A stretch of DNA of 32,841 nt from the NCBI GenBank assembly GCA_902790465.1, contig CADASF010000032.1, positions 1-32,841 of the forward strand. The letters run 5' to 3'. This stretch comes from an uncultured bacterium (GTDB taxonomy: Bacteria > Vulcanimicrobiota > CADAWZ01). The notes below the pieces were generated by a model. The model searched no databases. It was not told the origin of the DNA and saw nothing but the letters and a program-made list of their open reading frames with translations. Within the stretch, counting starts at the first letter, position 1. The number at the start of each line of letters is the position of its first letter. Positions 3,946-27,416 of this stretch are shown piece by piece. A program made the position numbers and the translations under genes.

Positions 3946-5586
3946 ATGACAATTTCTGAAGCGATAAAATATATAATTTCACAAAAAGATGATTCTGTTT
4001 TGTTAGATTCAAAAAGGTTTATTGAATATTTGCGAGAGCTTGATCCTGATGATTCTAAGAAATTTAGAGTTTTAAAAAAAAATTTAAATGATCAAATTTT
4101 GACTCTTTTTTTTAAAGATAATGACTTGATGATTTATAGAATTATAAAGATAAGAACTTTACTTGAAGAACAGGGGCTTTCTGAAAAATGGATAGATTTT
4201 ATAATAGATTCTTTTATTGAAGCCTTTAATTTAAATATGGAAAAGAATTGTAATATTCAAAATAATAATGTTGTTGATGGAAAAATAGATAATCTGACAT
4301 TAGACTTTGAAAATATTAGTAAAAACGAACTTGAAAATTTAATAAAATCTAAAGTACAAGAAATAGAAGAGATTGAGAAGTATTTTAAGAATTCTGAGGA
4401 AAAAGCCAAGCTGCTGAAAATAGATTTTGAAGATGCCCAAAATAGAGAGAAAAATCTACAGACAAAATATGATGAGATAACTGCTGAAAAATTAGAAATA
4501 GAAAAAGGACTTGAAGAAGCAGACAAACAGCTTGAAGAAGCTATGGCACGAGTCAATAAATTTAAAACAGAATTAGAACATATTATAATTGAACATAGAG
4601 AAGTTTCAGGGGATTTTACAGAACTTCAGCTGAAAGCCAGAAGGTTAAAATTGAGATATTATCAATCTATAAAAATATCCAATGAAGTAAAAATATTAAA
4701 TTCAACAGAAGTATTAATTGAAAAATTGAAATTGGAAGAGCTTATTTTGAGAGCAAATTATGGAGAACCTGAATCACAATATAATCTTGCTATTAAGTAT
4801 GATAATGGAGAAGGGGTTGCGGAGAATAAAAAAGAGGCTGTGAAGTGGTATAGAAAATCAGCAGAACAAGGTAAGCCAGAAGCACAATTTAATCTTGCCA
4901 TTATGTGTAGTCGTGGGGAAGGTATAGAACAAGATTATAGTGAGGCTGTTAAGTGGTACAAAAAGGCTGCAGAACAGGGGAATGTACAGGCACAATTTAA
5001 TCTTGCTATTAAGTATGAAGATGGTGAAGGGGTTACACAAGATCAGAAAGAAGCTGTCAAGTGGTATAAAAAGGCTGCAGAACATGGAGATGTAAATGCA
5101 CAATATAATCTTGCTATTAAGTATGATAATGGCGAAGGGGTCAAACAAGATACTAAAAAGGCATTGAAGTGGTATCGCAAATCGGCTGAACAGGGAAATG
5201 CAAATGCACAATATAATCTTGCTATTAAGTATGATAATGGCGAAGGGGTCAAACAAGATATTAAAAAGGCGTTGAAGTGGTATCGCAAATCAGCAGAAAA
5301 TGGAAATGCAAATGCTCAATGTAATCTTGGATTTATGTATGCAAATGGTAAAGGTGTAAAACAAGATTATTTAAAGGCTTCGAAATGGTTCAGGAAATCC
5401 GCAGAACAAGGTAAGCCAGAAGCACAATTTAACCTTGCTTGTATGTATAGAAAGGGTAGAGGGGTAAAAGAAGATGAGTCTGAGGCTGTAAAATGGTATA
5501 AGAAGGCAGCAGACCAAGGGTATGAAGTAGCTAAATTTCAACTCACTTTATTGGGTAAAATTTTATACAAAATATTTGGTCAATAA
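3946..5586 (+). CDS. Adaptor-domain / coiled-coil / Sel1-repeat protein 1
   Basis: This 546-residue protein appears cytosolic, with no signal peptide or membrane helix. Residues 1-95 form the helical N-terminal domain shared with the genes at 8324, 9589, 11820 and 25893 (key features: MTI.EAI at the start, KRF in the middle, EQGLSEKWIDFI near the end). Residues about 110-255 are Glu/Lys-rich with coiled-coil character. From about 265 there are seven 36-residue Sel1 repeats (consensus A..NLA.KYDNGEGV.QD..EA.KWY.KSAEQG). Sel1 repeats are TPR-like alpha-alpha hairpins that bind other proteins. The tail LLGKILYKIFGQ resembles the end of the protein at 9589. The ribosome site GGGTGA and the first 12 codons are almost identical to those of the gene at 25893. 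The inferred role is scaffold or adaptor; partners are unknown. Confidence 0.9.
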   Translation: MTISEAIKYIISQKDDSVLLDSKRFIEYLRELDPDDSKKFRVLKKNLNDQILTLFFKDNDLMIYRIIKIRTLLEEQGLSEKWIDFIIDSFIEAFNLNMEKNCNIQNNNVVDGKIDNLTLDFENISKNELENLIKSKVQEIEEIEKYFKNSEEKAKLLKIDFEDAQNREKNLQTKYDEITAEKLEIEKGLEEADKQLEEAMARVNKFKTELEHIIIEHREVSGDFTELQLKARRLKLRYYQSIKISNEVKILNSTEVLIEKLKLEELILRANYGEPESQYNLAIKYDNGEGVAENKKEAVKWYRKSAEQGKPEAQFNLAIMCSRGEGIEQDYSEAVKWYKKAAEQGNVQAQFNLAIKYEDGEGVTQDQKEAVKWYKKAAEHGDVNAQYNLAIKYDNGEGVKQDTKKALKWYRKSAEQGNANAQYNLAIKYDNGEGVKQDIKKALKWYRKSAENGNANAQCNLGFMYANGKGVKQDYLKASKWFRKSAEQGKPEAQFNLACMYRKGRGVKEDESEAVKWYKKAADQGYEVAKFQLTLLGKILYKIFGQ

Positions 5587-5613
5587 AAAAATAAAATTTG
5601 AGGTGATAATAAA

Positions 5614-6777
5614 ATGGCAAAAGAAGAAAATAAATCAAATAAGAAATTTATTTATATTGTTATTTGGGTTATTATTTTAATTGTGTTTTGTTTTCTTGCA
5701 TCTTCTGAAAAAAATCCTATTGGTTTTCAGGTAAAAAAAATATTGGCTGAAAATGGAAATGTAGATGCTCAAAATTTGCTTGGTTATATGTATGCTACAG
5801 GGAATGGAGTAGAGAAAGATTATGTAGAAGCCTTTAAATGGTATAGTAAATCGGCTGAAAAAGGAAATTCAAAGGGACAAAATGCTTTGGGGGTAATGTA
5901 TAATAATGGCTACGGAGTGGAGAAGAATCCAGCAAAGGCTTTTGAATATTACAAAAAATCAGCTGAACAAGGAAATGATTTAGCCCAGTCTAATATTGGT
6001 GATATGTATAATGAGGGCGACGATGTTGTGAAACAGGATAAAAAAGAGGCTATTAAGTGGTACAAAAAGGCAGCAGAAAATGGAAATGCACAGGCACAAT
6101 ATTGTCTTGCTTATAGATATTGTTTGGGTGAAGATATTGAAAAAAATCCTACAGAGGCATTGAATTGGTATGAAAAATCTGCAAAACAGGGATTTCCACC
6201 TTCAATATATGAGCTAGGTGTTCTGTACTATAAAGGTGAGGTTGTTAAGCAAGATAAGAAAAAGGCTTTTGAACTAATAAAAAAAGCTGCCAGTGAAGGA
6301 GAGGAAAGAGCTCAATATGATCTTGCAATGATGTATTATTATGAAGACCCTGTAAAGGGAAAGAAACAAGAGTCTGTTAAGTGGCTTAAAAAAGCTGCTG
6401 AAGCTGGAGTGGATTTAGCACAGCATAATCTTGGTAGGATGTATCTTCTTGGTGAATGTGTAAATTCAGATTATGATGAGTCATTTAAGTGGTTTTGGAT
6501 ATTGGCACAAAAAGGAAATCCAAGCGGACAAAATAGTGTTGGTGTTATGTATAAAAATGGATTTGGGGTAAATAAAAATTTAGAAGAAGCTGTTAAATGG
6601 TTCAAAAAATCTGCTGAACAAAGTGATCCATTGGGACAAAAAAATCTTGCAGATATGTATTATAATGGCGAAGGTGTAAAACAGGACAAAAAAGAAGCGT
6701 TTAAATGGTATAAAAAATCAGCAGAACAGGGAAATGAAGATGCTAAAGAAGCATTGGAAAAAATGGGTGAAAAATAA
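5614..6777 (+). CDS. Membrane-anchored Sel1-repeat protein
   Basis: The 387-residue product begins with a short Lys-rich N-terminus and one hydrophobic helix at about residues 11-29, then nine Sel1 units and a partial tenth ending in ALEKMGEK. With no cleavage site, the helix is probably a signal anchor. By the positive-inside rule the Lys-rich end stays in the cytoplasm and the Sel1 units face outward. Unlike its neighbours it lacks the N-terminal adaptor domain and the coiled coil. The repeats are more diverged than those in adjacent genes; unit 3 has one extra residue. A good ribosome site (GAGGTGA) lies about 7 bases before the ATG, and only 27 bp separate it from the previous gene, so co-transcription is likely. 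Confidence 0.88.
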   Translation: MAKEENKSNKKFIYIVIWVIILIVFCFLASSEKNPIGFQVKKILAENGNVDAQNLLGYMYATGNGVEKDYVEAFKWYSKSAEKGNSKGQNALGVMYNNGYGVEKNPAKAFEYYKKSAEQGNDLAQSNIGDMYNEGDDVVKQDKKEAIKWYKKAAENGNAQAQYCLAYRYCLGEDIEKNPTEALNWYEKSAKQGFPPSIYELGVLYYKGEVVKQDKKKAFELIKKAASEGEERAQYDLAMMYYYEDPVKGKKQESVKWLKKAAEAGVDLAQHNLGRMYLLGECVNSDYDESFKWFWILAQKGNPSGQNSVGVMYKNGFGVNKNLEEAVKWFKKSAEQSDPLGQKNLADMYYNGEGVKQDKKEAFKWYKKSAEQGNEDAKEALEKMGEK

Positions 6778-6830
6778 TTACAATTTCTGATAGAATTTGA
6801 TAGAGATGATTATGAGTTTTTGAAAAGAGG
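6765..6830 (+). pseudogene. Relic of an adaptor-domain gene start
   Basis: Directly after the Sel1 tail, GGGTGAAAAATAA is followed by TTACAATTTCTGAT. In the genes at 3946 and 25893 the equivalent is TGACAATTTCTGAA. AGATGATTATGAGTTTTTG further on matches AAGATGATTCTGTTTTG of the 3946 gene. The start codon has mutated (ATG to ATT), stops are present and some bases are deleted. I read this as the remains of an adaptor gene once fused head-to-tail to the previous Sel1 gene. Confidence 0.5.
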
Positions 6831-6837
6831 ATTTTGA

Positions 6838-7206
6838 ATGTTTAAATATGTGAAAATAATATTTGTTTTGTTGTTTGTTTCTTGTCTTTTTATTAATGCA
6901 GGTTGTTTTAAAAAAGATATTAATTTAAGGAAGCAAGCAGAGTCTGGAAATCCACAAGCACAATTTCAACTTGGTTTATATTATTATTTGGGAAAAATTG
7001 ATGGAAAAGTTGATTATGAAAAGGCTGTTTATTGGTTTACAAAATCAGCTGAACAGGGAAATACTAATGCACAAACTAATCTTGGAATTATGTATGAAAA
7101 TGGTCAAGGTGTAAAACAGGATTATGCTGAGGCTTTGAAATGGTATAGAAAATCTGCTGAACAGGGATATGCAGATGCTCAGTGTAATCTTGGTAATATG
7201 TATTAG
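6838..7206 (+). CDS. Sel1-repeat lipoprotein, 5' fragment (frameshifted)
   Basis: These 122 codons begin with a lipoprotein signal peptide: charged MFKYVK, a hydrophobic core and a lipobox-like INAGC, so Cys23 is the likely lipidated residue. Two Sel1 units follow and a third breaks off at ...NLGNMY before TAG. The break is caused by a perfect 32-bp tandem duplication (7174-7205 and 7206-7237). Removing one copy restores a continuous frame with the ORF at 7230-8327, giving a 485-residue lipoprotein of twelve Sel1 units. The ribosome site AGAGGA lies about 7 bases before the ATG. The fragment may be a dead gene, the OFF phase of a switchable gene, or a sequencing or assembly error in a repetitive stretch. 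Confidence 0.8.
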   Translation: MFKYVKIIFVLLFVSCLFINAGCFKKDINLRKQAESGNPQAQFQLGLYYYLGKIDGKVDYEKAVYWFTKSAEQGNTNAQTNLGIMYENGQGVKQDYAEALKWYRKSAEQGYADAQCNLGNMY

Positions 7207-7237
7207 ATGCTCAGTGTAATCTTGGTAATATGTATTA
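7174..7237 (+). repeat. Perfect 32-bp tandem duplication causing a frameshift
   Basis: The 32-base unit beginning GATGCTCAGTG and ending ATGTATTA occurs twice back to back with no mismatch. Because 32 is not a multiple of three, the second copy shifts the reading frame and creates a TAG at 7204-7206. With one copy removed, ...NLGNMY joins YNGKGVKQDY in frame. Confidence 0.95.
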
Positions 7238-8327
7238 TAATGGTAAAGGTGTAAAACAGGATTATGCTGAGGCTTTGAAATGGTTTGAAAAATCGGCTGA
7301 ACAGGGAAATGTAATGGGACAGTATAATCTTGGTAATATGTATGGAAATGGCAAAGGTGTAAAACAGGATTATGCTGAGGCTTTGAAATGGTTTAAAAAA
7401 TCCGCTGAACAGGGAAATGTAATGGGGCAGTATAATCTTGGAATTATGTATGAAAATGGATATGGTGTAACAAAGGATAAATCTGAGGCTGTGAAGTGGT
7501 ACAAAAAATCTGCTGAACAGGGAAATGCTAATGCACAACATAGTCTTGGAATTATGTATGAAAATGGTGAAGGTGTAAAACAGGATTATGCTGAGGCTTT
7601 GAAATGGTTTGAAAAATCTGCTGAACAGGGAGATGCAGAGGCACAATTAGAACTTGGTAATATGTATTATAATGGTGAAGGTGTAAAACAGGATTATGCT
7701 GAGGCTTTGAAATGGTTTGAAAAATCGGCTGAACAGGGAAATGTAATGGGACAGTATAATCTTGGAATTATGTATGAAAATAGTCAAGGTGTAAAACAGG
7801 ATTATATTGAAGCTGTGAAATGGTATAGAAAATCAGCTGAACAAGGATATAGTAATGCACAAACTAATCTTGGGATTATGTATGCAAATGGATATGGTGT
7901 AAAACAGGATTATCCTGAGGCTTTGAAATGGTTTGAAAAATCTGTAAAACAAGGAGATAGTTATGCACAAAATAATCTTGGTAATATGTATGAAAATGCT
8001 GAAGGTGTAAAACAAGATTATACAAAAGCTATTGAATTGTATAAAAAATCTGCTGAACAGGGAAATGCAATTGGGCAGTGTAATCTTGGTACTATGTATG
8101 CAAATGGCAAAGGTGTAAAACAAGATTATGCAGAGGCAGTAAAATGGTACAAGAAATCAGCAGAACAGGGACTTAAAGAAGCCCAATATAATCTTGGATT
8201 TGTGTATGAAAATGGATATGGTGTAACAAAGGATAAATCTGAGGCTGTGAAATGGTATAGAAAATCTGCTGAACAAGGAAATGAAGATGCTAAAAAAGCA
8301 TTGGAAAAATTGGGTGAAAAATTATGA
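7230..8327 (+). CDS. Sel1-repeat lipoprotein, 3' fragment
   Basis: The 365-codon open frame consists almost entirely of Sel1 units, nine full copies plus the remainder of the broken third unit, ending GNEDAKKALEKLGEKL. Taken alone it has no signal peptide. Its first ATG lies inside a Sel1 unit with no convincing ribosome site, so it is best read as the continuation of 6838-7206 beyond the 32-bp duplication. Low expression by reinitiation is possible. Several units are nearly identical in DNA, suggesting recent unit duplication. The final TGA overlaps the next start codon (ATGA), and the next gene's ribosome site GGGTGA lies inside the codons for the LGEK tail. Confidence 0.8.
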   Translation: MYYNGKGVKQDYAEALKWFEKSAEQGNVMGQYNLGNMYGNGKGVKQDYAEALKWFKKSAEQGNVMGQYNLGIMYENGYGVTKDKSEAVKWYKKSAEQGNANAQHSLGIMYENGEGVKQDYAEALKWFEKSAEQGDAEAQLELGNMYYNGEGVKQDYAEALKWFEKSAEQGNVMGQYNLGIMYENSQGVKQDYIEAVKWYRKSAEQGYSNAQTNLGIMYANGYGVKQDYPEALKWFEKSVKQGDSYAQNNLGNMYENAEGVKQDYTKAIELYKKSAEQGNAIGQCNLGTMYANGKGVKQDYAEAVKWYKKSAEQGLKEAQYNLGFVYENGYGVTKDKSEAVKWYRKSAEQGNEDAKKALEKLGEKL

Positions 8328-9592
8328 CGATAAAAGAAGCTATAGAAGATATAATTTCAATAAAAGATGATTCAATATTGGTTAATCTCAAAAGATTTAT
8401 GGCACATTTGAAAGATTTTGCTTCAGAACACCATAAAGAATTGAATATTTTGCAAAATGGTCTAAATGATAGAATTTTGAAACTTTTCTTTGATGACGAT
8501 AGACCGCCAAAAAATAGAATTGCACTTATTAAAATGGAACTTGAAGACCAAGGGCTTTCTGAAAAGTGGATAGATTTTATTGTCGAGTCTTTCTGCTCTG
8601 CTTTAGGTTGGGAAATTGAAAAGAAAGATGATGAACAAAAAGTTGCAGAAAATAACATTGTTGTAAATAAAGAAATTGATTTTGAAGAAGCTAAAAGGCA
8701 AGTTGAAGAAGCTAAAAAACAGTTAGAACTGGCTCAAAAAAAAGAGCTTGAAAATTCGATAAAAAATAAAAAACAAGAAATTAGAGAAACTGAAAATAAT
8801 TTAAAAGAAGCAGAACGAAAAATTATTTCATTGAAATTTGATTTAGAAGAAGCAGAAAACCAAGAAAAAGAGCTACAAGAAAAATATGATAATATTACAA
8901 GTGAAAAATTGGCAACAGAAAAAGATTTTGCAGAAACTAAGGCACGATTTGAAAAATTGAAAGTAAAATTAGAACAAGGTGAAATTGAGTATAAAGAAAT
9001 TTCTGATGATTTAGATGAAATTCAACCAAAGACTAAAAAATTAAAATTAAAATATGATGAATCTGTAAAAAAATCAAATGAAGCTAAGGCTAATCTTGAA
9101 AAACTTAGTTTGGAAGAACTTATTTTGAAGGCAAAATGTGGAGACCCTGAAGCACAAAATGATCTTGGTGATAAGTATTATGTTGGCAATGGTGTAGCAG
9201 AAGATGAATCAGAGGCTATTAAATGGTACAGAAAATCGGCAGAACAGGGAAATTCAGAAGCTCAAAATAATCTTGGAGTTATGTATGAAAATGGTAAAGG
9301 TGTAAAACAAGATTATGAAGAGGCTATTAAGTGGTACAGAAAATCGGCTGAACAAGGAAATGCAAGAGCTCAAAATAATCTTGGAGTTATGTATGCAAAT
9401 GGTAAAGGTGTAAAACAGGATTATGAAAAGGCTATGAAGTGGTACAAAAAATCTGCAGAAAATGGAAATTCATTAGCAGAACTTAATTTAGCATATTTAG
9501 AATTACATAAAAATTTAGAATATTGTTCAAAATCAGTTCCAGAACTTATTGGAACATTAGAAAACTTGAGAGAACTTGGTGAAAAATTATGA
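8324..9592 (+). CDS. Adaptor-domain / coiled-coil / Sel1-repeat protein 2
   Basis: In this 422-residue paralog of the 3946 product, residues 1-100 form the shared helical domain (FMAHLKDF, ILQNGLNDRIL, EDQGLSEKWIDFI, ALGWEIEKK). Residues about 110-250 are a strongly charged coiled coil. Only three full Sel1 units follow (about 266-376), then a degenerate unit and a non-repeat tail with SVPELIGTLENL ending ELGEKL. It has the fewest Sel1 units of the five adaptor proteins. Start and stop both overlap neighbours by four bases (ATGA), which indicates translational coupling with the lipoprotein frame before it and the adaptor gene after it. Confidence 0.9.
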   Translation: MTIKEAIEDIISIKDDSILVNLKRFMAHLKDFASEHHKELNILQNGLNDRILKLFFDDDRPPKNRIALIKMELEDQGLSEKWIDFIVESFCSALGWEIEKKDDEQKVAENNIVVNKEIDFEEAKRQVEEAKKQLELAQKKELENSIKNKKQEIRETENNLKEAERKIISLKFDLEEAENQEKELQEKYDNITSEKLATEKDFAETKARFEKLKVKLEQGEIEYKEISDDLDEIQPKTKKLKLKYDESVKKSNEAKANLEKLSLEELILKAKCGDPEAQNDLGDKYYVGNGVAEDESEAIKWYRKSAEQGNSEAQNNLGVMYENGKGVKQDYEEAIKWYRKSAEQGNARAQNNLGVMYANGKGVKQDYEKAMKWYKKSAENGNSLAELNLAYLELHKNLEYCSKSVPELIGTLENLRELGEKL

Positions 9593-11772
9593 CGATAAAA
9601 GAAGCTATCGAAGATATAATTTCAAAAAAAGATGATTCTTTATTGATTGATCTCAAAAAATTTATGTCATATTTGCGAGATCTTATTCCTGAACACAATA
9701 AAGAATTAAAAATTTTGCAAAATGGTCTAACAGAAAGGATTTTGGAACTTTTCTTTAATGATAATAGACCACAAAAAAATAGAATTGCACTAATCAAAAT
9801 GGAACTTGAAGACCAAGGTCTTTCTGAAAAGTGGATAAATTTTATTGTTGAATCTTTCTGTTCTGCTTTGGTCTGGGAAATTGAAAATACAGATGATGTT
9901 GCAGAAACAATTACAAAAGAAGAAGTAACAGAAAATAATTTTGATGTAAATAAAGAAGTTGATTTGGAAGAAGCAAAGAGACAGCTTGAACTGGCTCAAA
10001 AACAATTAGAAAAAGCACAAAAAAGTAAAATTAATGAAGCACATTCAAAAACTAAAGAAGCCGAGGAAAAATTTGAAAAATCTAAGCGAGAATCTAATTT
10101 ATTGAAACTTCATTTTGAAGATACAGAAAAAAGAGAGAAAGAATTAAAAGCAAAATATGATAAAATAATAACAGAAAACTCAGAAACTAAAAAAGATTTA
10201 GAAGAAACTAAATCACTATTAGAAAATTTGGAAATCAAATTAGAACAAGTAACACTTGAACATAAAGAAATTTCAGAAAATTTTACAGAAATTCAGCTAA
10301 AAACTAAAAATTTAAAATCAAAATATGATGAAGCTATAAAAAAGTCAGATGAAACAAAGTCATTATTAGAAAAATTAAACTTGGAATATCTTATTTTAAG
10401 AGCAGATTATGGCTATCCCGAGGCACAATATGATCTTGCTGTTAAATATGATAATGGTGAAGGGGTAGAACAAGACGAAGAAGAGGCTGTTAAGTGGTTT
10501 ACAAAATCAGCTGAACAGGAATATGCAGAGGCTCAAAAAAAACTTGGTTATATGTATGCAACTGGGGATGGTGTAACAAAAGACCATTCAGAAGCTATTA
10601 AGTGGTTTAAAAAGTTCACAGTATTTAATTGGGAACTTGATGATATTTATGTTGATCTTGCTAAAAAATATGATAATGGTGTAACAAAAGATAAAGAAGA
10701 GGCTGTCAAGTGGTACAGAAAATCTGCAGAACTTGGAAATGCAACATCACAATATAATCTTGGTCTTTGTTATAAGAATGGAGAAGGGGTAACACAAGAT
10801 TATACAGAAGCTGTTAAGTGGTATAGAAAATCAGCTGAACAGGGAGATGGAGATGCACAATTTTATCTTGGTGTTATGTATGACTTTGGGTATGGCATAA
10901 CAAAAAATAAAGAAGAAGCTGTAAAATGGTACAAAAAATCCGCTGAACAAGGAAATGCAACATCACAATATAATCTTGGTCTTTGTTATAAGAATGGAGA
11001 AGGGGTAACACAAGATTATACAGAAGCTGTCAAGTGGTATAGAAAATCCGCTGAACAAGGAAATTCAACTGCTCAATTTAACCTTGGTGTTATGTATAAA
11101 AAGGGTGAAGGTATAGAACAAAACAAAAAAGAGGCTGTAAAGTGGTATAGAAAGTCCGCTGAACAAGGAAATGTTAATGCTCAAAATAATCTTGGTCTTT
11201 GTTATGAGAATGGAGAAGGTGTAAAACAAGATTATGCTGAAGCTGTAAAATGGTACAAAAAATCCGCTGAACAAGGAAATGCAAATGGTCAATTTGCTCT
11301 TGGTACTATGTATGACTTTGGGAATGGTATAACAAAAAATAAAAAAGAAGCTGTCAAGTGGTATAGAAAATCTGCTGAACAGGGACATTCAACTGCTCAA
11401 TTTAACCTTGGAAATATGTATTATAAGGGTGAAGGTATAGAACAAGACAAAAAAGAGGCTGTAAAGTGGTATAGAAAATCTGCTGAACAGGGACATTCAA
11501 CTGCTCAATATAATCTTGGTCTTCGTTATGAGAATGGAGAAGGTGTAAAACAAGATTATGCTGAGGCTGTCAAGTGGTACAGAAAATCTGCTGAACAAGG
11601 AAATGCAAATGGTCAATTTGCTCTTGGTACTATGTATAGACTGGGGAGAGGCGTAATAAAAGATGAAGAAGAATCTAAAAAGTGGTTTAAGAAGAGTGCT
11701 GAACAAGGTGATGAGAGAGCTAAATTTCAACTTAATGCATTAGGTGGATTCTTATTAAAAATATTTGGCTAA
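9589..11772 (+). CDS. Adaptor-domain / coiled-coil / Sel1-repeat protein 3
   Basis: At 727 residues this is the longest of the adaptor-Sel1 family. Residues 1-97 are the shared N-terminal domain, about 110-260 a coiled coil, then twelve Sel1 units from about 270 and a tail ending ALGGFLLKIFG. Unit 3 is irregular (TVFNWELDDIYVDLAKKY). Units 4 and 6 are almost identical in DNA, as are the core segments of 9 and 12, so the array grew by duplicating blocks of two or more units. The ATG overlaps the previous stop (ATGA). After the TAA at 11770-11772 the same frame stays open to 11823 and ends LGEIL, a decayed copy of the LGEKL tail seen in its neighbours, so the protein may once have ended later. 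Confidence 0.9.
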   Translation: MTIKEAIEDIISKKDDSLLIDLKKFMSYLRDLIPEHNKELKILQNGLTERILELFFNDNRPQKNRIALIKMELEDQGLSEKWINFIVESFCSALVWEIENTDDVAETITKEEVTENNFDVNKEVDLEEAKRQLELAQKQLEKAQKSKINEAHSKTKEAEEKFEKSKRESNLLKLHFEDTEKREKELKAKYDKIITENSETKKDLEETKSLLENLEIKLEQVTLEHKEISENFTEIQLKTKNLKSKYDEAIKKSDETKSLLEKLNLEYLILRADYGYPEAQYDLAVKYDNGEGVEQDEEEAVKWFTKSAEQEYAEAQKKLGYMYATGDGVTKDHSEAIKWFKKFTVFNWELDDIYVDLAKKYDNGVTKDKEEAVKWYRKSAELGNATSQYNLGLCYKNGEGVTQDYTEAVKWYRKSAEQGDGDAQFYLGVMYDFGYGITKNKEEAVKWYKKSAEQGNATSQYNLGLCYKNGEGVTQDYTEAVKWYRKSAEQGNSTAQFNLGVMYKKGEGIEQNKKEAVKWYRKSAEQGNVNAQNNLGLCYENGEGVKQDYAEAVKWYKKSAEQGNANGQFALGTMYDFGNGITKNKKEAVKWYRKSAEQGHSTAQFNLGNMYYKGEGIEQDKKEAVKWYRKSAEQGHSTAQYNLGLRYENGEGVKQDYAEAVKWYRKSAEQGNANGQFALGTMYRLGRGVIKDEEESKKWFKKSAEQGDERAKFQLNALGGFLLKIFG

Positions 11773-19700: not shown

Positions 19701-20669
19701 ATATTTAGACAATGCCTCAACATCTACAATACCTGCGATAGATACATCATCACCACTACCTGTACGACTGAACAATCCATTTTTACTAAAGTCAGGAAGA
19801 TTTTTTTTAAGACTTTGTTTAAACTCAATCTCACCTTTTTTTACTATTTTATATGAAAGATGTTTATAAAAAGTATCAACTCCACCCATTTTTTTATGTG
19901 AACCACCAAGGTCTTCATAGGTATCTCTGTAAGCATCTTCAACACCATCTGAACCCAAATAACAGGCTATAACTTTTTTCTTGGTGAGATTTATAAAACG
20001 ACTTCTAATACTCTCTACAACATCTTCATCACACATTGAAGTTGTAACATTATATTCACATCTTGAATCCCAAGGTATAGGTTGTCTTATTTGTAATCCT
20101 TTATCTGATTCAATGAATACTTCACATCTCCCATCTCCCTGTTGGATAAGAATCAGACATTTAGAAAGCATTAATCCAGCTATTAAAGTAGTACCATAGA
20201 TATGAAATTTTTCATCTTCAGACAGATTATTTATATCCATATCCTCTACTTTATTGTCTTTCAATTCTTCTTTTGTAGGTGGGTATTGTTCATAGTGATT
20301 TTTAACTTCATCATGCCATCTATATATTATAGTATCTGTAAGTCTTTTTATTTCTTGATTTCTATAATACTCACTATCACACAGCAATTCTTCAGAAAAT
20401 GGACGAGGAGTTATAAAGACTGTTTTATTTGTTATCTTTTCTTTAGGAGAAATTATTATACTTTCGGCAAAATCTTTTAAACATTGTTTAGTTATTTCAA
20501 CTGCAAATTTTGCCCCTAACCCGCTTCTAAAACACTCTTTAGCTCCATGTCCATCTGCTACTATAGCTATGTAATATCTTTCATTGGAAATAGAATCAGA
20601 AAAATCTTCACATTCTGTATTTTTTATAATGTGGTTATGTCCTGTTGCTGTTTCATTAAAAGCAAACAT
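16722..20669 (-). CDS. PP2C-type Ser/Thr phosphatase with coiled coil and giant acidic repeat tail
   Basis: I place the start at ATG 20669 (1315 residues) because AGGGAG lies five bases upstream; an in-frame TTG at 20693 would add eight residues. Residues 1-317 are a PP2C domain with its metal-site motifs: ECEDF, VADGHG (39-42), GTTLIAG, LGSDGVED (240-242) and GDDVSIAG (306-308). Residues about 350-565 are coiled coil, ending in an EEARRKAE-rich stretch. Then comes a long Asp/Glu/Thr/Pro-rich region containing about 44 octapeptide-like repeats (TPVNVDQG, TPANADTE). A charged C-terminal segment ends in DDDIDDLYD. No signal peptide is present, so the enzyme should be cytosolic and is expected to reverse phosphorylation by the kinase in the same run. 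It is the phosphatase member of the TerY-P triad. Confidence 0.92.
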   Translation of the reverse strand: MFAFNETATGHNHIIKNTECEDFSDSISNERYYIAIVADGHGAKECFRSGLGAKFAVEITKQCLKDFAESIIISPKEKITNKTVFITPRPFSEELLCDSEYYRNQEIKRLTDTIIYRWHDEVKNHYEQYPPTKEELKDNKVEDMDINNLSEDEKFHIYGTTLIAGLMLSKCLILIQQGDGRCEVFIESDKGLQIRQPIPWDSRCEYNVTTSMCDEDVVESIRSRFINLTKKKVIACYLGSDGVEDAYRDTYEDLGGSHKKMGGVDTFYKHLSYKIVKKGEIEFKQSLKKNLPDFSKNGLFSRTGSGDDVSIAGIVDVEALSKYVSQFKDDINIYKLDEELFWKGDELRGKLRKHGILKQNYLDSETAYEKAEDEYNRFVDAWEKRNRFGKPKNLEEEYWLRQRGRNLKQKCKEAAEQCLKDNKLFNDYDQTFNKIQDEIELLKQKKSDPDRNSYNSIADKNKIYNEEIQQELYETIEKLDNEIKDLDGQLERLEKDIEEERRRSEEEARRRAEEEARRKAEEEARRKAEKEARRKAEEERRKAEEERRRAEAEARRKAGQTTEDNKVFGFMSTINGLINGAVEKGGQYIEQGGKYIDNVLKFGPLGNLYISPDQMDSSVQMGSSEGEEQSRFGDSKAIEYETESSIKNTEEDKSDKQENQSDDSNDDLAGKDTPVVDESEENVPEPKQELTKQVDSTANLDNGTIPSGGVTESKESNPDPETSANVDPDSANVDSDSANVDQGTPANDDTGTPANDDPDSANVDQGTPANVASETPVNADQVTSANVASETPANADTETPVNVDQGTPVNADTETPVNVDQGTHVNADTETPVNVDQGTPVNADTETPANVATETPVNDDQVTSANDDTETPVNVDQGTPVKADTETPANVDQVTPANVDQGTPVKADTETPANVDQGTPVNADTETPANADTETPVNADQVTSANVDSETPANADTETPANADTETPANADTETPANADTETPVNVDQGTPSNADTETPVNDDQETPVNADTETPVNVDQGTPANADTETPVNADQGTSANVAPKTPANDDTETPANVAPETAANVATDSAKETDSKESETDETTTSEGGEQPQGGSQVLSDDSSNDSAGNNTPTVDESKENVTEETTLEVIEPVDLTDNLDDIVIIPNTGVTDSEESGTNETTTSESEEQPQGDQQQTLIEDFSNNSVVKETTQPVNEPKENVTEPKQEEKEFADPVDSAEVEIPPDKAEEDARKNAKKEVRNEDGSIPIEVKHTTKSNNKGETTRVVNSHYSERRISKEKYSCSVSRKFKVQLEIYPNPEFEEDDDIDDLYD
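17457..18516. repeat. 24-bp minisatellite, about 44 copies, inside the PP2C gene
   Basis: Plus-strand units such as TTTGCAGGTGTTTCTGTGTC repeat every 24 bases (some 21) for about 1060 bases. On the coding strand they encode (E/G/V)T(P/S)(V/A)N(V/A/D)D(Q/T). All length changes are multiples of three. The array keeps the complementary strand open too, producing long but meaningless plus-strand frames. Confidence 0.95.
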
Positions 20670-20683
20670 AGCTTCTCCCTTCA

Positions 20684-21466
20684 TTAATCCCAATCATCAT
20701 CTTCAAAATTGTCATCTGTATTTGTTGGAGGTGGTGTAGTATATGAATCAGGAGCCAAATCTGGAGTAACAGAACTTGAAGATAAATTGTTTTCTGCTAT
20801 TGCCTGTTGTACAACATCTTTTCCAGTTGTTACTGTATTTGTTGTACTTGACTTAGAGGCAAGCATAGATGATGTAACACTGACAAATCTCATCAATTTT
20901 TTGAATAATTCCATATCAGCTGTCTGTATTACAGCCTCTGGTCCTCCGACTATTGAAGCTAACATTGCAGCATCAGCATCATCACCAATAGCAAAACCTA
21001 TTTTTGTGGCTCTTTCAAACCATTTGTTTCCTCTTATTTTATCCAATGGTCCTTGCCAACTGTCATTTGCATATCCGTCTGTCATAAAGATGATAACTGG
21101 CATCAATGCTCCTGTCATTGATTTTAGATACCCATTTTTTGAAAGTTTTGAATTTAACTCTGTTAGAGCCTGTCCCATATATGTTCCGCCAAAAGCAGTT
21201 AAATCTTGCCACATAAAATCGCCCTCTAATGATTCTGGACCATTTACTGTAATCCACTTGCAATTGGAATTAAATTCCAAAACAGCTATTTTCAACAAGG
21301 CATCTGCATTGTCTTTGGCCAATTCTTTTAATGCTTCTGTAGATTCAATCATAGCACGATTTAAAATTGCTATTGGTGTTCCAGACATACTTCCTGATGT
21401 ATCTAGTACATAGAAAACATGTAGTTCTTTGCGTGGCATTGGTTCTCTTTTTTCTAAACTTGGCAT
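20684..21466 (-). CDS. TerY-like von Willebrand factor A protein
   Basis: The 260-residue product is one VWA domain with an intact metal site: DTSGS (22-26), Thr95 in GGTYMGQAL and TDG (129-131). A short Ser/Thr/Asp-rich tail ends DDDWD. The pattern and size fit TerY, the VWA protein found with a PP2C phosphatase and a protein kinase in the TerY-P triad, where it is thought to act as a metal-dependent adaptor. The ribosome site AAAGGA precedes the ATG. It starts 16 bases after the kinase gene ends, and its stop lies 14 bases before the preferred PP2C start, so the three genes form a tight minus-strand operon. No terB/C/D/Z genes are visible nearby. Confidence 0.9.
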   Translation of the reverse strand: MPSLEKREPMPRKELHVFYVLDTSGSMSGTPIAILNRAMIESTEALKELAKDNADALLKIAVLEFNSNCKWITVNGPESLEGDFMWQDLTAFGGTYMGQALTELNSKLSKNGYLKSMTGALMPVIIFMTDGYANDSWQGPLDKIRGNKWFERATKIGFAIGDDADAAMLASIVGGPEAVIQTADMELFKKLMRFVSVTSSMLASKSSTTNTVTTGKDVVQQAIAENNLSSSSVTPDLAPDSYTTPPPTNTDDNFEDDDWD

Positions 21467-21482
21467 AATTTTATTCCTTTCA

Positions 21483-22814
21483 TTATTTATTTGCTTCTAT
21501 TTTTATTTCTTGATCATCTACTATAAATTTTATTCCATCTTTTAAAGGAATTTTACTTTCAGGAACAACTTTTTTATGTTTTCCTGATGGTGTGGTAGCA
21601 TTCCAAATATCCTTTGTTTTATTCCAAATGTGTAGTTCACCAGTATCCTTACTAGGAACAATTGAAGCAACAGGATCTATTGCATTATTTGCACTACATA
21701 CTCCTAGTTGACATTTGTAGATCCTACTATTTTTTATTGCAGGAATTGAATAATCTCGTAAAATCAATCTAAATGGAATTTGAATTTTTTTCCCACAGCA
21801 CTCACATTTGCATGGTTCACCATTTTTTGTGAAAACTTCATTTCCACAAGAACAATCAACTATTTCACTTCTAAATCTTGTCAAAACCTTTAACCAGTTG
21901 ATTTCTGATGGTCTGCGATTCGGATTTTTTATTGAATCTTGGCTAAATGCGTTTGAAAAGATTTCTCTAATATAATCTGGAAGACATTTCCAAAAAGTAA
22001 TAGAATCTTTGTGATTTTTTATTTTTGGTTCAGGCTTATTTGGATTATTGGGGTCTGGATCCATCATAAAATATGCTTCACTTCCATATAATTTTTTCTG
22101 AAGTTCGGCTGATAAAGCAGGAACAAAATATCTTTTTCCTTCTAATGGGTGGTTATTACAGAATAGAATATAAAGTATTATTGACATTGAAAATATATCT
22201 GTTTGAGTATTTGGTTTTGTTTTTCCAAGTACAACTTCTGGAGCTAAATATCTAGGTTTACCGATGATTCCCATTTCTCTTCCATTTGGAGCTACATTGT
22301 CATTGTCACATATCAAAACTTTTCCTTTTTCAGGATATATAAAAAAGTTGCCATCATTTAAATCTTGATAGCTATATCCCATATTGTGAAGTTTTCTATA
22401 GGCATCAACAATATGTAAACAGGTATCTATTATTTTACGATATGAACTAAAATTAGCTGTTCCACGCATAAATTTTGGAATATCATAATACTCAGGAGGT
22501 CTCAAATCCATTATATATCCAAATGAATCATTGCCATTGTTATCCCATTCAGTTATATCAAGAGGCCACAAAAATTCTTCACTTGGCTTTCCCTTGTTGA
22601 TGTTTGTTCTTAAATTGTCATAAAATGCTTGTATATTTTTGTTACTATCTAAAAAAGATTTTTTGTACCATTTCAAAGCTTTTTCTGCACCTTGATATGT
22701 TACTTTATATACTTCACCTTGACCGCCTTCTGCAAGAAATTCTTTGACGGTTAATGTATCATTGGAAACTGTTTTTATTCTTTTTCCAACTTCTAATGTC
22801 CCAGTTCCGTCCAT
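21483..22814 (-). CDS. Active-type protein kinase with zinc ribbon and FHA-like tail
   Basis: The 443-residue protein carries an N-terminal kinase domain with the needed residues: glycine loop AEGGQGEVYKV, ATP lysine at about K48 (EKALKWY), catalytic loop YQDLNDGNF (D151, N156), metal-binding D170 in the variant CDND, and APE (191-193). A four- to six-Cys zinc ribbon lies at about 320-343 (CSCG...CKCECCG). Residues 344-443 resemble the diverged FHA-like tail of triad kinases (GELHIWNKT, IPLKDGIKF). It is probably the working Ser/Thr kinase paired with the PP2C phosphatase. AGGAGG precedes the ATG. Its upstream DNA, including promoter and palindrome, is a near copy of that before the kinase gene at 24343-25650. 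Confidence 0.92.
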   Translation of the reverse strand: MDGTGTLEVGKRIKTVSNDTLTVKEFLAEGGQGEVYKVTYQGAEKALKWYKKSFLDSNKNIQAFYDNLRTNINKGKPSEEFLWPLDITEWDNNGNDSFGYIMDLRPPEYYDIPKFMRGTANFSSYRKIIDTCLHIVDAYRKLHNMGYSYQDLNDGNFFIYPEKGKVLICDNDNVAPNGREMGIIGKPRYLAPEVVLGKTKPNTQTDIFSMSIILYILFCNNHPLEGKRYFVPALSAELQKKLYGSEAYFMMDPDPNNPNKPEPKIKNHKDSITFWKCLPDYIREIFSNAFSQDSIKNPNRRPSEINWLKVLTRFRSEIVDCSCGNEVFTKNGEPCKCECCGKKIQIPFRLILRDYSIPAIKNSRIYKCQLGVCSANNAIDPVASIVPSKDTGELHIWNKTKDIWNATTPSGKHKKVVPESKIPLKDGIKFIVDDQEIKIEANK

Positions 22815-22894: not shown

Positions 22895-22927
22895 ATTATA
22901 ACAAATGACTATGACAGAATCTGTCAT
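22895..22927 (-). promoter_or_regulatory. Promoter with 17-bp palindromic operator, kinase 1
   Basis: On the minus strand ATGACAGAATCTGTCAT (22911-22927) is a perfect palindrome around one central base. Ten bases later comes the extended -10 TGTTATAAT (TATAAT at 22895-22900). The palindrome covers where a -35 box would be and no good -35 is seen, which suits an activator- or repressor-controlled promoter. The same arrangement with the same spacing occurs at 25734-25766. Confidence 0.65.
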
Positions 22928-22952
22928 TCTAATGAAATTTTGAAAAATAGTT

Positions 22953-24257
22953 TTAGTTTTTATTTGCTTCTATTTTTATTTCTTGTCCATTTACTGTAAA
23001 TATTATTCCATCTTTTAAAGGAATTTTACTTTCAGGAGTAACATCTTTAGATTTCCCCGATGGGGTTTTTGCTTTCCAAGTATCTTTTGTTTTGTTCCAA
23101 ATATGTAGTTCACCAGTATCTTTAGTTGGAACAATAGATGCAACTGGAGCTACAGCACTGTTGTCATCTACTCCAAGTTGACATCTATAGATTCGACTAT
23201 TTTTTATTGCAGGGATTGCATAGTCTCTTAAAACCAATTTAAATGGAACTTTAATCTTTTTCCCACAAATTTCACATCTGCAAGATTCACCATTTTTTGT
23301 GAAAACTTCATTACCACAAGAACAATCAACTATTTCACTTCTAAATCTTGTTAGTGCTTTTAACCATTCAACTTCGAAAGGTCGATAACTGGGATTCTTA
23401 ATTGAATATTGATCAAATACATTTAAGAATAATTGTTTTATATAATTTGGAAGACGATTCCAAATAGCAATAGATTTTTTGTGAACTTTTGGAGAAGGCT
23501 TATTTGGATTTTGTGTGTCTGGATCCATCATAAAATATGCTTCACTTCCATATATTTTTTCCTGAAGTTCAGCTGATAAAGCAGGTTCTAAATATCTTAT
23601 TCCCTCCAATGGGTGGTTATAACAGAGTATAATATAAAGAATGATTGCCATTGAAAATAAATCTGTTTGAGTGTTTGGTTTTGTTTTTCCAAGTACAACT
23701 TCTGGAGCTAAAAATCGAGGCTTACCTAAAATTCCAAGTTCTTCACCATCTTGAGCTACTTTGTCATTGTCTGATATCAAAACTTTTCCTTTTTCAGGAT
23801 TTATCCAAAAGCTAGAATCATTTAAATCTTGATAACTATATCCCATATTATGAAGTTCTCTAAAAGCATCAACAATATTTAAACATGTATCTACTCTTGT
23901 ACGATAAGATTTAAATTCCAATTTTCCCAACATTAAATTTTGCATATTGCAATAACCTGCAGGTATTGGATCCATTACATATCCAAATGAGCCATTCAAG
24001 AATTCACTTATATCTCTAGGCCATAAAAATTTATCACTTGGCTCTCTAGTTCTTGTAGTTCTGTTTAAATTATCATAAAATTTTTTATCTAAACTATCTA
24101 AAAATGTTTTTTTATACCATTTAAGAGTTTTTTCTGTGCCATTATAGTCAACTTTATATATTTCGCCTTCACAGACTTCAGCAATAAAATCTTTAACAGT
24201 TAATATATTGTTGAAAGCTGTTTTTAATGTTTGTCCAAGTGCTAATGTTCCGTCCAT
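22953..24257 (-). CDS. Kinase paralog 2, partly degenerate, zinc ribbon and FHA-like tail
   Basis: I place the start at ATG 24257 (434 residues; MDGTLALGQ) because GAGGAGGT lies directly upstream and the start matches its two paralogs; the longer frame to 24299 has no such site. The domain order equals kinase 1. The ATP lysine region (EKTLKWY) and catalytic Asp (YQDLND, D144) remain, but the glycine loop is AEVCEGE (central Gly lost) and the catalytic-loop Asn is Ser149 (DLNDSS). The metal Asp is kept (SDND). Zinc-ribbon cysteines are kept (CSCG, CRCEICG). The 3' third is very similar in DNA to the 24343 gene. Activity is doubtful; it may regulate or compete with kinase 1. Confidence 0.88.
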   Translation of the reverse strand: MDGTLALGQTLKTAFNNILTVKDFIAEVCEGEIYKVDYNGTEKTLKWYKKTFLDSLDKKFYDNLNRTTRTREPSDKFLWPRDISEFLNGSFGYVMDPIPAGYCNMQNLMLGKLEFKSYRTRVDTCLNIVDAFRELHNMGYSYQDLNDSSFWINPEKGKVLISDNDKVAQDGEELGILGKPRFLAPEVVLGKTKPNTQTDLFSMAIILYIILCYNHPLEGIRYLEPALSAELQEKIYGSEAYFMMDPDTQNPNKPSPKVHKKSIAIWNRLPNYIKQLFLNVFDQYSIKNPSYRPFEVEWLKALTRFRSEIVDCSCGNEVFTKNGESCRCEICGKKIKVPFKLVLRDYAIPAIKNSRIYRCQLGVDDNSAVAPVASIVPTKDTGELHIWNKTKDTWKAKTPSGKSKDVTPESKIPLKDGIIFTVNGQEIKIEANKN

Positions 24258-24342
24258 TATACCTCCTCTATCTAATTCAACAGTTAAATATTTTTGCATA
24301 TTTTTAAACTGTTTAGTGAGCCATATATTTAGTTTTTATTTT

Positions 24343-25650
24343 TTAGTTTTTATTTGCTTCTATTTTTATTTCTTGTCCATTTACAGTAAATATTATTCCA
24401 CTTTTTAGAGGAATTTTACTTTCAGGAGCAACTGTTTTTGACTTTCCAGATGGTGTTTTTGCATCCCAAGTATCTTTTGTTTTGTTCCAAATATGTAATT
24501 TACCAGTATCTTTAGTTGGAACAACTGAAGCAACAGGGGCTAATGCATTATCAGTATTATTAAGTTGACATTTATATATTCGAGAAGTTTTTGTTACAGG
24601 AATTGCATAATCACTTAAACACAATTTAAATGGAATTTGAATTGTGTTGTTACAATTTTCACATTTACAAGATTCCACGTTTTTTGTAAAAACTTCGTTA
24701 CCGCAAGAACAATTAACTATGTCACTTCTAAATCTTGTTAGAATTTTTAACCAATCAATTTCTAATGGTCTATCTATTTGATTTTTAATTGAATCTTGAC
24801 TAAATACTTTTAGGAATATTTCTTTTACATAATTTGGAAGACGGTTCCAAATAGCAATAGAATTTTTATGAATTGTTTCAGAAGGCTTATTTGGATTATT
24901 GGGGTCTGGGTCCATCATAAAATATGCTTCACTTCCATATGATTTACTTATCAAATCGGCTGATATAGCAGATTCTAAAGACCTTTTTCCTTCCAATGGG
25001 TGATTATAACATAGTATAATATAAAGAATGATTGCCATTGAAAATCTATCTGTTTGATTGTTTGGTTTTGCTTTTCCAAGTACAACTTCTGGAGCTAAAT
25101 ATCGAGGTTTGCCTAAAATTCCAATTTCTTTATCTGATTGAGCTATTTTGTCACATTCAGATATCAAAATTTTTATTTTTTCAGGATTGATCCAAAACTC
25201 ACAAGCATCTAAATCTTGATAGTTAAGTCCTTTATCGTGAAGATTTTTAAAGGCATTAACAATATATAAACATGCATCTATTCTTTTGCGATATGAGTTG
25301 AAATTTACTCTTCCAATCATAAATTCTGAAAGAGTGCGGTATTCACTAGGTATTATATCCATAATATAGCCAAATGTATCGCCATCAAATTCAGTGAGGG
25401 CGATAGGCCATAAAAATTCATTACTTGGTTTTCCATTATTTATGTTTGTTTTCAAGTTCTCATAAAATGCTTGTATATCTTTGTTACTGTATAAAAATGA
25501 TTTTTTGTACCATTTTAGAGCTTTTTCTTCGCCTTGATATGTTACTTTATAGAGTTCACTTTCATCGTCCTCTGCAAGAAATTCTTTGACGGTTAATACA
25601 TCATTTGAAGTTGTATTTATCTTTGTTCCAACTGTTAATGTTCCGTCCAT
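24343..25650 (-). CDS. Pseudokinase paralog 3, zinc ribbon and FHA-like tail
   Basis: The 435-residue paralog shows clear loss of catalysis. The glycine loop is AEDDESELYKV (all Gly lost), the catalytic-loop Asn is replaced by Glu151 (YQDLDACEF) and the metal Asp of the DFG-like motif is Glu165 (SECDK). The ATP lysine region (EKALKWY), catalytic-position Asp146, APE motif, zinc ribbon (CSCG, CKCENC) and FHA-like tail remain and the frame is intact, so the fold is probably under selection for a non-catalytic job. It has an AGGAGG-type site before its ATG and an operator-promoter that duplicates that of kinase 1. It is first in the minus-strand run, 85 bp before the preferred start of kinase 2. 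Confidence 0.88.
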   Translation of the reverse strand: MDGTLTVGTKINTTSNDVLTVKEFLAEDDESELYKVTYQGEEKALKWYKKSFLYSNKDIQAFYENLKTNINNGKPSNEFLWPIALTEFDGDTFGYIMDIIPSEYRTLSEFMIGRVNFNSYRKRIDACLYIVNAFKNLHDKGLNYQDLDACEFWINPEKIKILISECDKIAQSDKEIGILGKPRYLAPEVVLGKAKPNNQTDRFSMAIILYIILCYNHPLEGKRSLESAISADLISKSYGSEAYFMMDPDPNNPNKPSETIHKNSIAIWNRLPNYVKEIFLKVFSQDSIKNQIDRPLEIDWLKILTRFRSDIVNCSCGNEVFTKNVESCKCENCNNTIQIPFKLCLSDYAIPVTKTSRIYKCQLNNTDNALAPVASVVPTKDTGKLHIWNKTKDTWDAKTPSGKSKTVAPESKIPLKSGIIFTVNGQEIKIEANKN

Positions 25651-25733
25651 TATTCCTCCTGTTTGGAAGTTTTATTTAATTCTATTTTAATAAATTTAAT
25701 TAGCTTTTTAGTTTTGTATTTCCTTTATTTCAT

Positions 25734-25766
25734 ATTATAACAAATAACGATGACAGATTCTGTCAT
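25734..25766 (-). promoter_or_regulatory. Promoter with 17-bp palindromic operator, kinase 3
   Basis: ATGACAGATTCTGTCAT (25750-25766, plus strand) is the second copy of the palindrome, and TATAAT (25734-25739, minus strand) follows at the same spacing as in the kinase 1 promoter. About 84 bases separate the -10 from the ATG. Downstream, blocks such as AATTAAATTTATTA and AAATAAAGGAAATAC are shared with the kinase 1 leader. Confidence 0.65.
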
Positions 25767-25839
25767 TTATTTTATGAAATAAAATAAATTGTAAAAATAG
25801 AAGGTTATTATTTAAAATACTAAAAAAATAAATAATATA

Positions 25840-25893
25840 TTTTTTGAAATAAAGCGACTAAAAAATGCATTGGCAAGACTGGGTGAAAAATAA
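25840..25893 (+). pseudogene. Relic of a Sel1 gene tail before the fifth adaptor gene
   Basis: In frame, this segment reads FFEIKRLKNALARLGEK followed by TAA, matching the end of intact Sel1 genes (EDAKEALEKMGEK at 6777, EDAKKALEKLGEKL at 8327). The TAA shares its last base with the next ATG, and GGGTGA within the relic serves as that gene's ribosome site. The rest of the upstream Sel1 gene is gone. This suggests a former tandem Sel1 array now interrupted by the minus-strand kinase block. Confidence 0.6.
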
Positions 25894-27416
25894 TGACAAT
25901 TTCTGAAGCGATAAAAAATATAATTTTAATTTCAAAAAAAGATGATTTATTGTTACTTGATCTCAAAAGATTTATTGCACATTTGAGAGACTTTTCTCCA
26001 GAATACAATAAAGAATTGAATATTTTGCAAAATGGTTTAACTGAAAGAGTATTGAAACTTTTCTTTGATGACGATAGACCACAAAGAAGTAGAATTGCGA
26101 GAGTTAAAATAGCACTTGAAGACCAAGGACTTTCTGAAAAGTGGATAGATTTTATTGTAGAGTCTTTCTGTGAGGCTTTGGGGTGGAAAATTGAAAAGAA
26201 AGATGATGGCGAAAAAGTTACAGAAAATAACATAGTTGTAAATAAAGAAATTGATTTTGAAGAAGCTAAAAGACAACTTGAGTTGGCTCAAAAACAATTT
26301 GAGCAGGCTCAGAAGAGTAAAATTGATGATGCACATTTAAAAACTCAAGAAGCCGAGAAAAATTTTGAGGAAGCCGAACGCAAAGCCAAACTATTGAAAT
26401 CTAATTTTGAAGAAACGGAAAGAAGAGAAAAAGAGTTAGAAGTAGAGTATAAGAAAATAACTGCTGAAAATTTGAAAATAGAAAAAGAACTTGAAGAAGC
26501 AAACAAACAGCTTGAAGAAGCTATGGCACGAGTTGAGAATTTGGAAATAAAATTAAGAGCTATTGAAATCGAACATAAAAAAGTTGAAGAAAATTTTACT
26601 GAAATTCACTTGAAAGCCGAAAATATAAAATCAAAATATGAAGAATCTTTGCAAAAATCAAGTGATTCAAAGGCAGTTTTGGAAAAATTACAATTGGAAG
26701 AACTTATTTTAAAGGCAAATTATGGCGATTCTGAAGCACAAAATAATCTTGGTGGAATGTATGACAATGGCAATGGTGTAAAGCAGGATTATGAAGAGGC
26801 TATTAAGTGGTACAGAAAGTCAGCAGAACAGGGAAATGCAACGGCACAAAATAATCTTGGTGATAAATATTATTATGGTCAAGGTGTTATACAGGATTAT
26901 GAAGAGGCAGTAAAATGGTACAGAAAATCAGCAGAACAGGGAAATGTAATGGCTCAATGTAATCTTGGTTATATGTATGAAAATGGTAATGGAGTAAAAA
27001 AAGATTATTCCGAGGCTGTTAAGTGGTACAGAAAATCAGCAGAGCAGGGGAATGCACATGGACAGCTAAAGCTTGGGTTTATGTATAATAAGGGATATGG
27101 TGTAACACAGGATTATTCAGAGGCAGTCAAATGGTACAGAAAATCGGCAGAACAGGGAAATGCAACGGCACAAAGTAATCTTGGTGTTATGTATAATAAT
27201 GGCAATGGTGTAAAACAAGATTATGCAGAGGCAGTAAAGTGGCACAGAAAATCAGCAGAACAAGGAAATGCTCAAGGGCAGGCTTATCTTGGCGATATGT
27301 ATGAATATGGCAAAGGTGTAACACAAGATAAAAATGAGGCTGTGAAATGGTATAAAAAATCGGCTGATCAGGGAGAAGAATTTGCAAAAAAAGCATTGAA
27401 AAGATTGGGGTATTAG
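25893..27416 (+). CDS. Adaptor-domain / coiled-coil / Sel1-repeat protein 5
   Basis: This 507-residue protein is the fifth member of the family, separated from the others by the whole minus-strand kinase block. Residues 1-98 are the shared domain (DLKRFIAHLRDFSPEYNKEL, EDQGLSEKWIDFIVESF, ALGWKIEKK), about 110-265 a coiled coil that shares the segment KQLEEAMARV with protein 1, and about 270-490 six Sel1 units, ending ALKRLGY. Its leader and first 12 codons are almost identical to those of the 3946 gene, so those two are the closest pair at the 5' end. A weak candidate promoter (TTGTAA, 18 bases, TAAAAT) lies near 25790-25820. It diverges from the pseudokinase gene. Confidence 0.9.
   Translation: MTISEAIKNIILISKKDDLLLLDLKRFIAHLRDFSPEYNKELNILQNGLTERVLKLFFDDDRPQRSRIARVKIALEDQGLSEKWIDFIVESFCEALGWKIEKKDDGEKVTENNIVVNKEIDFEEAKRQLELAQKQFEQAQKSKIDDAHLKTQEAEKNFEEAERKAKLLKSNFEETERREKELEVEYKKITAENLKIEKELEEANKQLEEAMARVENLEIKLRAIEIEHKKVEENFTEIHLKAENIKSKYEESLQKSSDSKAVLEKLQLEELILKANYGDSEAQNNLGGMYDNGNGVKQDYEEAIKWYRKSAEQGNATAQNNLGDKYYYGQGVIQDYEEAVKWYRKSAEQGNVMAQCNLGYMYENGNGVKKDYSEAVKWYRKSAEQGNAHGQLKLGFMYNKGYGVTQDYSEAVKWYRKSAEQGNATAQSNLGVMYNNGNGVKQDYAEAVKWHRKSAEQGNAQGQAYLGDMYEYGKGVTQDKNEAVKWYKKSADQGEEFAKKALKRLGY

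Follow-up and report, generated by a model that had tools for sequence, protein, structure and literature searches.

The systems closest to the locus described here are the TerY-P triads. They consist of a TerY-like VWA protein, a PP2C phosphatase and a Ser/Thr kinase with a zinc ribbon, in a definition that follows Anantharaman et al. 2012 (PMC11090510), and they are regarded as phosphorylation switches tied to restriction and antiphage systems (PMC11090510). Linked kinase, PP2C and vWA genes, the kinase having a kinase-zinc ribbon-beta domain architecture, are also found in the GAP1-N2 systems (PMC7159879). The effector-associated domains (EADs) of the vWA-MoxR and GTPase systems are regarded as coupling adaptors which occur in many copies per genome, both beside the core and away from it (Kaur et al. 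2020, PMC7159879), the record for EAD1 being 22 copies per genome (PMC7159879).

The window analysed here is the whole stretch of 32,841 nucleotides of contig CADASF010000032.1, from an uncultured bacterium of the Vulcanimicrobiota. It contains a kinase-VWA-PP2C triad which shares with the TerY-P triads the adjacency and common direction of all three components, the zinc ribbon of the kinase and the intact MIDAS of the VWA protein. It differs from them in its adaptor-domain proteins and two pseudokinases, and no TerD, TerB or McrBC gene is present in the window. The kinase architecture and the linked kinase, PP2C and vWA genes are shared with the GAP1-N2 systems; however, that association has been described only for actinobacteria, and the likeness here is that of the three linked genes.

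Organization of the locus

All the genes named in the sequence-only reading of this DNA were recovered as open reading frames (ORFs), at the coordinates given below. The adaptor is the N-terminal domain common to most of the Sel1 proteins.

3946-5586, plus strand: SelA, adaptor domain (residues 1-99), coiled coil and Sel1 repeats
5614-6777, plus strand: SelB, single N-terminal TM segment (12-30) and Sel1 repeats, without adaptor
6838-8327, plus strand: SelC, signal/lipoprotein-like N-terminus and Sel1 repeats, in two ORFs (6838-7206 and 7230-8327)
8324-9592, plus strand: SelD, adaptor, coiled coil and Sel1 repeats
9589-11772, plus strand: SelE, adaptor (seven helices, AlphaFold2 pLDDT 93), coiled coil and Sel1 repeats
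11820-13445, plus strand: SelF, adaptor, coiled coil and Sel1 repeats
13440-16628, minus strand: LRR membrane protein, truncated adaptor (about 16-84), BspA-type LRR (LRR_5), Thr/Asn-rich repeats and about 15 hydrophobic segments
16722-20693, minus strand: PP2C phosphatase (PF13672), with a coiled region and a long tail of ETPVNVDQGTP-type repeats
20684-21466, minus strand: TerY-like VWA protein (PF00092), MIDAS intact, acidic C-terminal EDDDWD tail
21483-22814, minus strand: K1, Ser/Thr kinase with zinc ribbon (four invariant Cys) and beta-rich tail, catalytic residues present
22953-24299, minus strand: K2, pseudokinase paralogue, glycine loop and catalytic-loop Asn gone
24343-25650, minus strand: K3, pseudokinase paralogue, DFG Asp gone too
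25893-27416, plus strand: SelG, adaptor, coiled coil and Sel1 repeats, transcribed away from the kinase genes

The five adaptor-Sel1 genes (SelA, SelD, SelE, SelF and SelG) are thus all on the plus strand, and between them lies the minus-strand run K3–K2–K1–VWA–PP2C–LRR. The flanks of the window encode FeoB, FMN reductase and peptidases, and no defence gene is recognised among the annotated window genes. In the sister species (L074), FMN reductase, SelA, SelB and an S46 peptidase are close together, and about 20 kb including the triad (window 6838-27416) is extra in the present genome. Long tandem repeats of 48 bp and 24 bp (window 14689-15660 and 17461-18523) give rise to the Thr/Asn-rich tails of the LRR and PP2C proteins. 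Long plus-strand ORFs at 17453-18693 were rejected as genes, being antisense to the PP2C repeat tail.

The triad and its pseudokinases

The adjacent kinase, VWA and PP2C genes (16722-22814, minus strand) had been read as a phospho-signalling triad, and K1–VWA–PP2C does meet the TerY-P definition. The PP2C protein matches PF13672 (E 1.2e-18), the VWA protein matches PF00092 (E 1e-5) with an intact MIDAS (DTSGS/T/D), and K1 matches PF00069 (E 9e-15) and retains its catalytic residues. The match of the PADLOC TerY model to the window VWA is weak (E 0.008). The zinc ribbon of K1, which none of the zinc-ribbon models matched, is assigned by its Cys pattern alone, the four Cys being invariant among six triad kinases. 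The spacing of the three genes is as in an operon, since K1 and VWA are 16 bp apart and the VWA and PP2C ORFs overlap. A PADLOC match of REase_II to the PP2C protein was discarded as due to repeats and coiled coil.

The other two kinases had been described as degenerate, and K2 and K3 are indeed pseudokinases. In both, the VAIK Lys and the HRD Asp are still present but the glycine loop and catalytic-loop Asn are missing, and in K3 the DFG Asp has gone as well. The FHA-like tail ascribed to the kinase was not borne out. It consists of a zinc ribbon and, after it, an all-beta domain, which is called here only beta-rich because the AlphaFold2 model, made with three window sequences, is poor (pLDDT 46).

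In triads ordered kinase, VWA, PP2C (hereafter KVP), the VWA proteins have a conserved acidic C-terminal tail that ends in DDW or similar (window 20684-20710). Such a tail is also found at the end of an adaptor-LRR protein of the sister species and is absent from Enterobacter VWAs; it is a possible docking peptide.

The Sel1 and LRR proteins

The common N-terminal domain seen earlier in five Sel1 paralogs is confirmed, their N-termini (about 99 residues) being 50-75% identical to the first. It is followed in all five by a coiled coil and then by Sel1 repeats, which match with E 4e-38 to 9e-145. PADLOC matches of PtuA/JetC to the Sel1 proteins were set aside as due to repeats and coiled coils.

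It had also been proposed that the Sel1 set occupies three cellular locations and that the triad controls scaffolds linking cytosol and envelope. SelB does have one N-terminal TM segment, and the N-terminus of SelC resembles a signal sequence and includes a non-canonical lipobox (...INAGC). However, neither of them carries the adaptor, and the proposed link is to that extent unsupported. The sole window protein joining an adaptor, in truncated form, to TM helices is the LRR protein. Its N-terminus is a short form of the domain, as had been suspected, scoring 25.8 bits against an adaptor model built without it and lacking the last helix. An exact tandem duplication of 32 bp (window 7173-7237) divides SelC and may represent a real pseudogene, a switch or an assembly fault.

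The adaptor domain

The AlphaFold2 model of the SelE adaptor (99 residues) consists of seven helices and has a pTM of 0.83. Pfam has no family matching the domain, and the hits of 32 adaptor members up to E 1 include no EAD model. PDB chains gave no match either, by sequence (best E 0.097) or by fold with the AlphaFold2 model (best E 2.3), and on these grounds an already known domain was rejected. Among the papers searched, none names such a domain together with TerY-P; an earlier mention in Anantharaman et al. 2012 is possible.

The genome contains 22 adaptor copies, namely five in the window, one on contig C39 and sixteen elsewhere. The carriers outside the window include LRR_5 proteins, zinc-ribbon proteins and a large Sel1 protein, among others. 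The sister species (G001, RUG13696, a MAG) has 14 copies, some fused to GTPase domains and one to a TerF-like VWA. Sel1 is not essential, as the adaptor is also joined to LRR, FGE-sulfatase, FtsK, Clp_N, ClpX zinc finger, Tim44 and TerF-like VWA modules. The sequence-only reading held that adaptor genes situated mostly far from the triad would speak against its proposal. Indeed, 16 of the 22 copies in this genome are away from it, but such scattering is what has been reported for EADs (PMC7159879).

The adaptor resembles the EADs in being a small helical domain with many copies and diverse fusions, and perhaps also in having one copy fused to a core-type component. The core-type fusions seen are the C39 gene, on a separate contig, and the TerF-like VWA of the sister species. 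It differs from the EADs in that it matches no EAD model in Pfam and that the core is kinase/PP2C/VWA, not MoxR-vWA. By this analogy the adaptor appears to behave like an EAD, and it is not filed among them because no EAD model matches it.

The C-terminal domain of several adaptor proteins that have an LRR or zinc-ribbon part (L019, L022-L027, L030) contains WWLRSP...VRPALWINL motifs and by eye is C-type-lectin-like. In the sister species, two neighbouring adaptor genes (L070:11977-12268 and 13041-13320) are frameshifted at a nearly identical place, apparently from different causes: one has a tandem duplication of some 13 bp, the other a longer A-run. The two sister genomes are fragmented MAGs, and some frameshifts may be assembly errors.

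Linkage of adaptor and triad across genomes

Eight KVP loci were examined. Those beyond the window were found by a kinase search and their neighbours were inspected afterwards, so that the adaptor was not the query; a truncated copy (L115) and a lone kinase (L117) were left out of the count. The check that had been suggested, a search for genomes in which adaptor and triad are neighbours, gave a positive outcome, the adaptor adjoining seven of the eight triads. The seven are those of the window and the sister species, of a further family in the phylum, of one plasmid each from Prevotella and Methylomonas, and of two IMG/VR contigs. In the sister species (G001:C90), adaptor-LRR, adaptor-VWA (TerF-like), adaptor-Sel1, kinase, VWA and PP2C genes all have the same direction. 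In the other family (G024:C108), three adaptor-LRR genes are divergent from kinase-VWA-PP2C. Among 72,556 plasmids, only those of Prevotella sp. E2-28 and Methylomonas sp. AM2-LC gave full-length kinase matches. In the former, an adaptor-FGE protein (E 5e-7) comes after the triad, along with an adaptor protein that matches less well (E 9e-4). In the latter, the triad precedes five tandem adaptor proteins (E 3e-9 to 1e-8) bearing Sel1, Tim44, Clp_N and ClpX-finger modules. When adaptors from Methylomonas, L113 and L114 were compared with all plasmids by tblastn, which is not very sensitive, these same two records alone were matched, a result of supporting value only. On each of the IMG/VR contigs, L113 and L114, two adaptor proteins follow the triad. 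At the eighth locus, L116, no adaptor was detectable nearby. The distant adaptor matches score 24-31 bits and are convincing by repetition and position, not singly; the weakest (Prevotella, L114) rest on a broader profile.

The adaptor is absent at all four classical Ter-type triads taken as controls (contig C9 of the present genome, G007, G137 and an Enterobacter plasmid). These have a different gene order and match in the kinase core only; G007 and G137 are from the same phylum. A marginal 27-residue adaptor match on the Enterobacter plasmid (E 0.008) was discounted. Seven of eight against none of four corresponds to a one-sided Fisher p of about 0.01 (by hand, 8/792). The triad on C9 (G000:C9:7855-11241; L142:3811-7242) is the second of this genome and has the classical order VWA-PP2C-kinase, with no adaptor genes near it.

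Few KVP loci were sampled, and the survey covered 149 genomes of one phylum plus plasmids and viral-collection contigs. Of the 149 genomes, 3 have the full-length KVP kinase. The adaptor is present in these 3 and in one more, a same-genus relative of G024. For this co-occurrence the naive p is 7e-6 with genomes as units and 4e-4 with genera, but only two lineages are independent, and for this reason the cross-phylum cases weigh more.

It is very improbable that a tandemly expanded Sel1 family merely came to lie beside an unrelated triad. Sel1 is abundant in the genome (150 reported repeat matches), and in the sister species (G001:C200) a SelA orthologue adjoins SelB near FMN reductase with the triad absent, as coincidence would allow. 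However, the linkage recurs independently with non-Sel1 partners in other phyla, the adaptor is missing at classical triads, and adaptors lie near triads in G000 (the present genome), G001 and G024 more often than under uniform placement (binomial P 2e-5 to 1e-4, with tandem copies counted separately). We are highly confident that the linkage of adaptor and triad is real. Because the same pairing recurs in unrelated bacteria, the adaptor-Sel1 and LRR proteins are probably the true working partners of the trio.

Fusion genes and defence neighbours

On contig C39 of the present genome, a single gene encodes adaptor, coiled coil, Sel1 and VWA. Its VWA is 72% identical to that of the window triad, the unusual DDDWD tail included, and has Cys in place of the MIDAS Thr, while its N-terminal/Sel1 part shares 46% identity with SelA across 395 aa. 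In the adaptor tree it groups with SelA and the SelA of G001 C200 (support 100/96), beside the other window adaptors. No other single finding points as strongly as this fusion to adaptor-Sel1 proteins and the triad VWA acting together.

The fusion also bears on whether the adaptor-Sel1 family could be a pool of kinase substrates, in which the phosphorylated domain would oligomerise only with itself and proximity would reflect co-regulation of enzyme and substrate, with no docked complex. Many paralogues with a common N-terminus, the distance of most adaptor copies from the triad and the lack of an adaptor on the core proteins of the window would all suit such a pool. It is nevertheless distinctly unlikely, as the fusions to a triad-type VWA and to the TerF-like VWA place adaptors physically on VWA-type components.

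A kinase-VWA fusion occurs on contig C3 (L043:6979-9222), with a degenerate MIDAS and no PP2C within that stretch. It follows a UDP-glucose pyrophosphorylase-like gene, which in the sister species precedes the triad locus; owing to this matching neighbour, the C3 gene is likely a reduced remnant of an ancestral triad locus.

The C39 fusion is located between Shango-like SngB (7e-187) and SngC (3e-275), right after McrB/McrC (L042:4171-17294). This recalls the CoCoNuT systems of type II/III-A with TerY-P, in which TerY-P is likewise linked to McrBC-type restriction (PMC11090510). Beside the window triad, however, there is no McrB GTPase and no CnuH/CnuE, and CoCoNuT membership was rejected as the McrB-family GTPase and CnuH/CnuE are missing among the annotated window genes. 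Other sister modules also have defence genes upstream, namely BREX PglX/PglZ/BrxL at L114 and a type IIG RM gene at L113.

These neighbours weigh against a module for housekeeping or envelope signalling in a rumen-type bacterium, whose Sel1 and LRR proteins would take part in surface homeostasis. The flanks of the window, its lack of recognised defence genes and the membrane or envelope nature of the LRR protein, SelB and SelC agree with such a role. It is rather doubtful given the Shango, BREX and type IIG contexts of the sister modules and the restriction and antiphage contexts reported for TerY-P (PMC11090510). The sister modules suggest defence; the window itself does not.

Proposed mechanism and its significance

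The earlier view that triad and adaptor proteins belong together stands, given their proximity across phyla and the adaptor-Sel1-VWA fusion; its cytosol-envelope part is not supported. We consider it somewhat probable, by analogy, that the locus is a KVP-subtype TerY-P switch coupled through the adaptor to exchangeable scaffolds or effectors, with the balance of kinase and phosphatase setting assembly. Through the adaptor, interchangeable modules (Sel1 and LRR in this locus) would be docked either to the triad or to one another. The VWA protein would sense or bind a partner via its MIDAS, and K1 and PP2C would set the phosphorylation state by which the adaptor complex is assembled or released. 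The triad would in this way control the assembly of the adaptor-bearing proteins, and K2 and K3, which have the same zinc-ribbon tail, may tune or titrate the switch. As the three core proteins of the window have no adaptor, homotypic docking to the core has no obvious basis in this locus. The output would most likely be a stress or antiphage response, since sister modules sit in defence islands. In relation to TerY-P, the adaptor would hold the place that the EADs have in the vWA-MoxR systems.

More tentatively, the undescribed helical adaptor could define a cross-phylum TerY-P subtype serving defence, a signalosome with EAD-like wiring in which one phospho-switch is combined with swappable scaffolds and effectors (Sel1, LRR, FGE, FtsK and Clp docking domains). 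The partners and outputs of TerY-P are poorly defined, and a conserved neighbouring adaptor names candidate partners. It would also extend the coupling principle of the EADs to kinase/phosphatase switches and provide a marker for more such systems.

One of the Methylomonas adaptors (L111:14927-16418) is fused to Clp_N and a ClpX zinc finger, which are docking parts of Clp unfoldases. Fusions to Clp_N and the ClpX finger hint that some outputs may proceed via regulated proteolysis.
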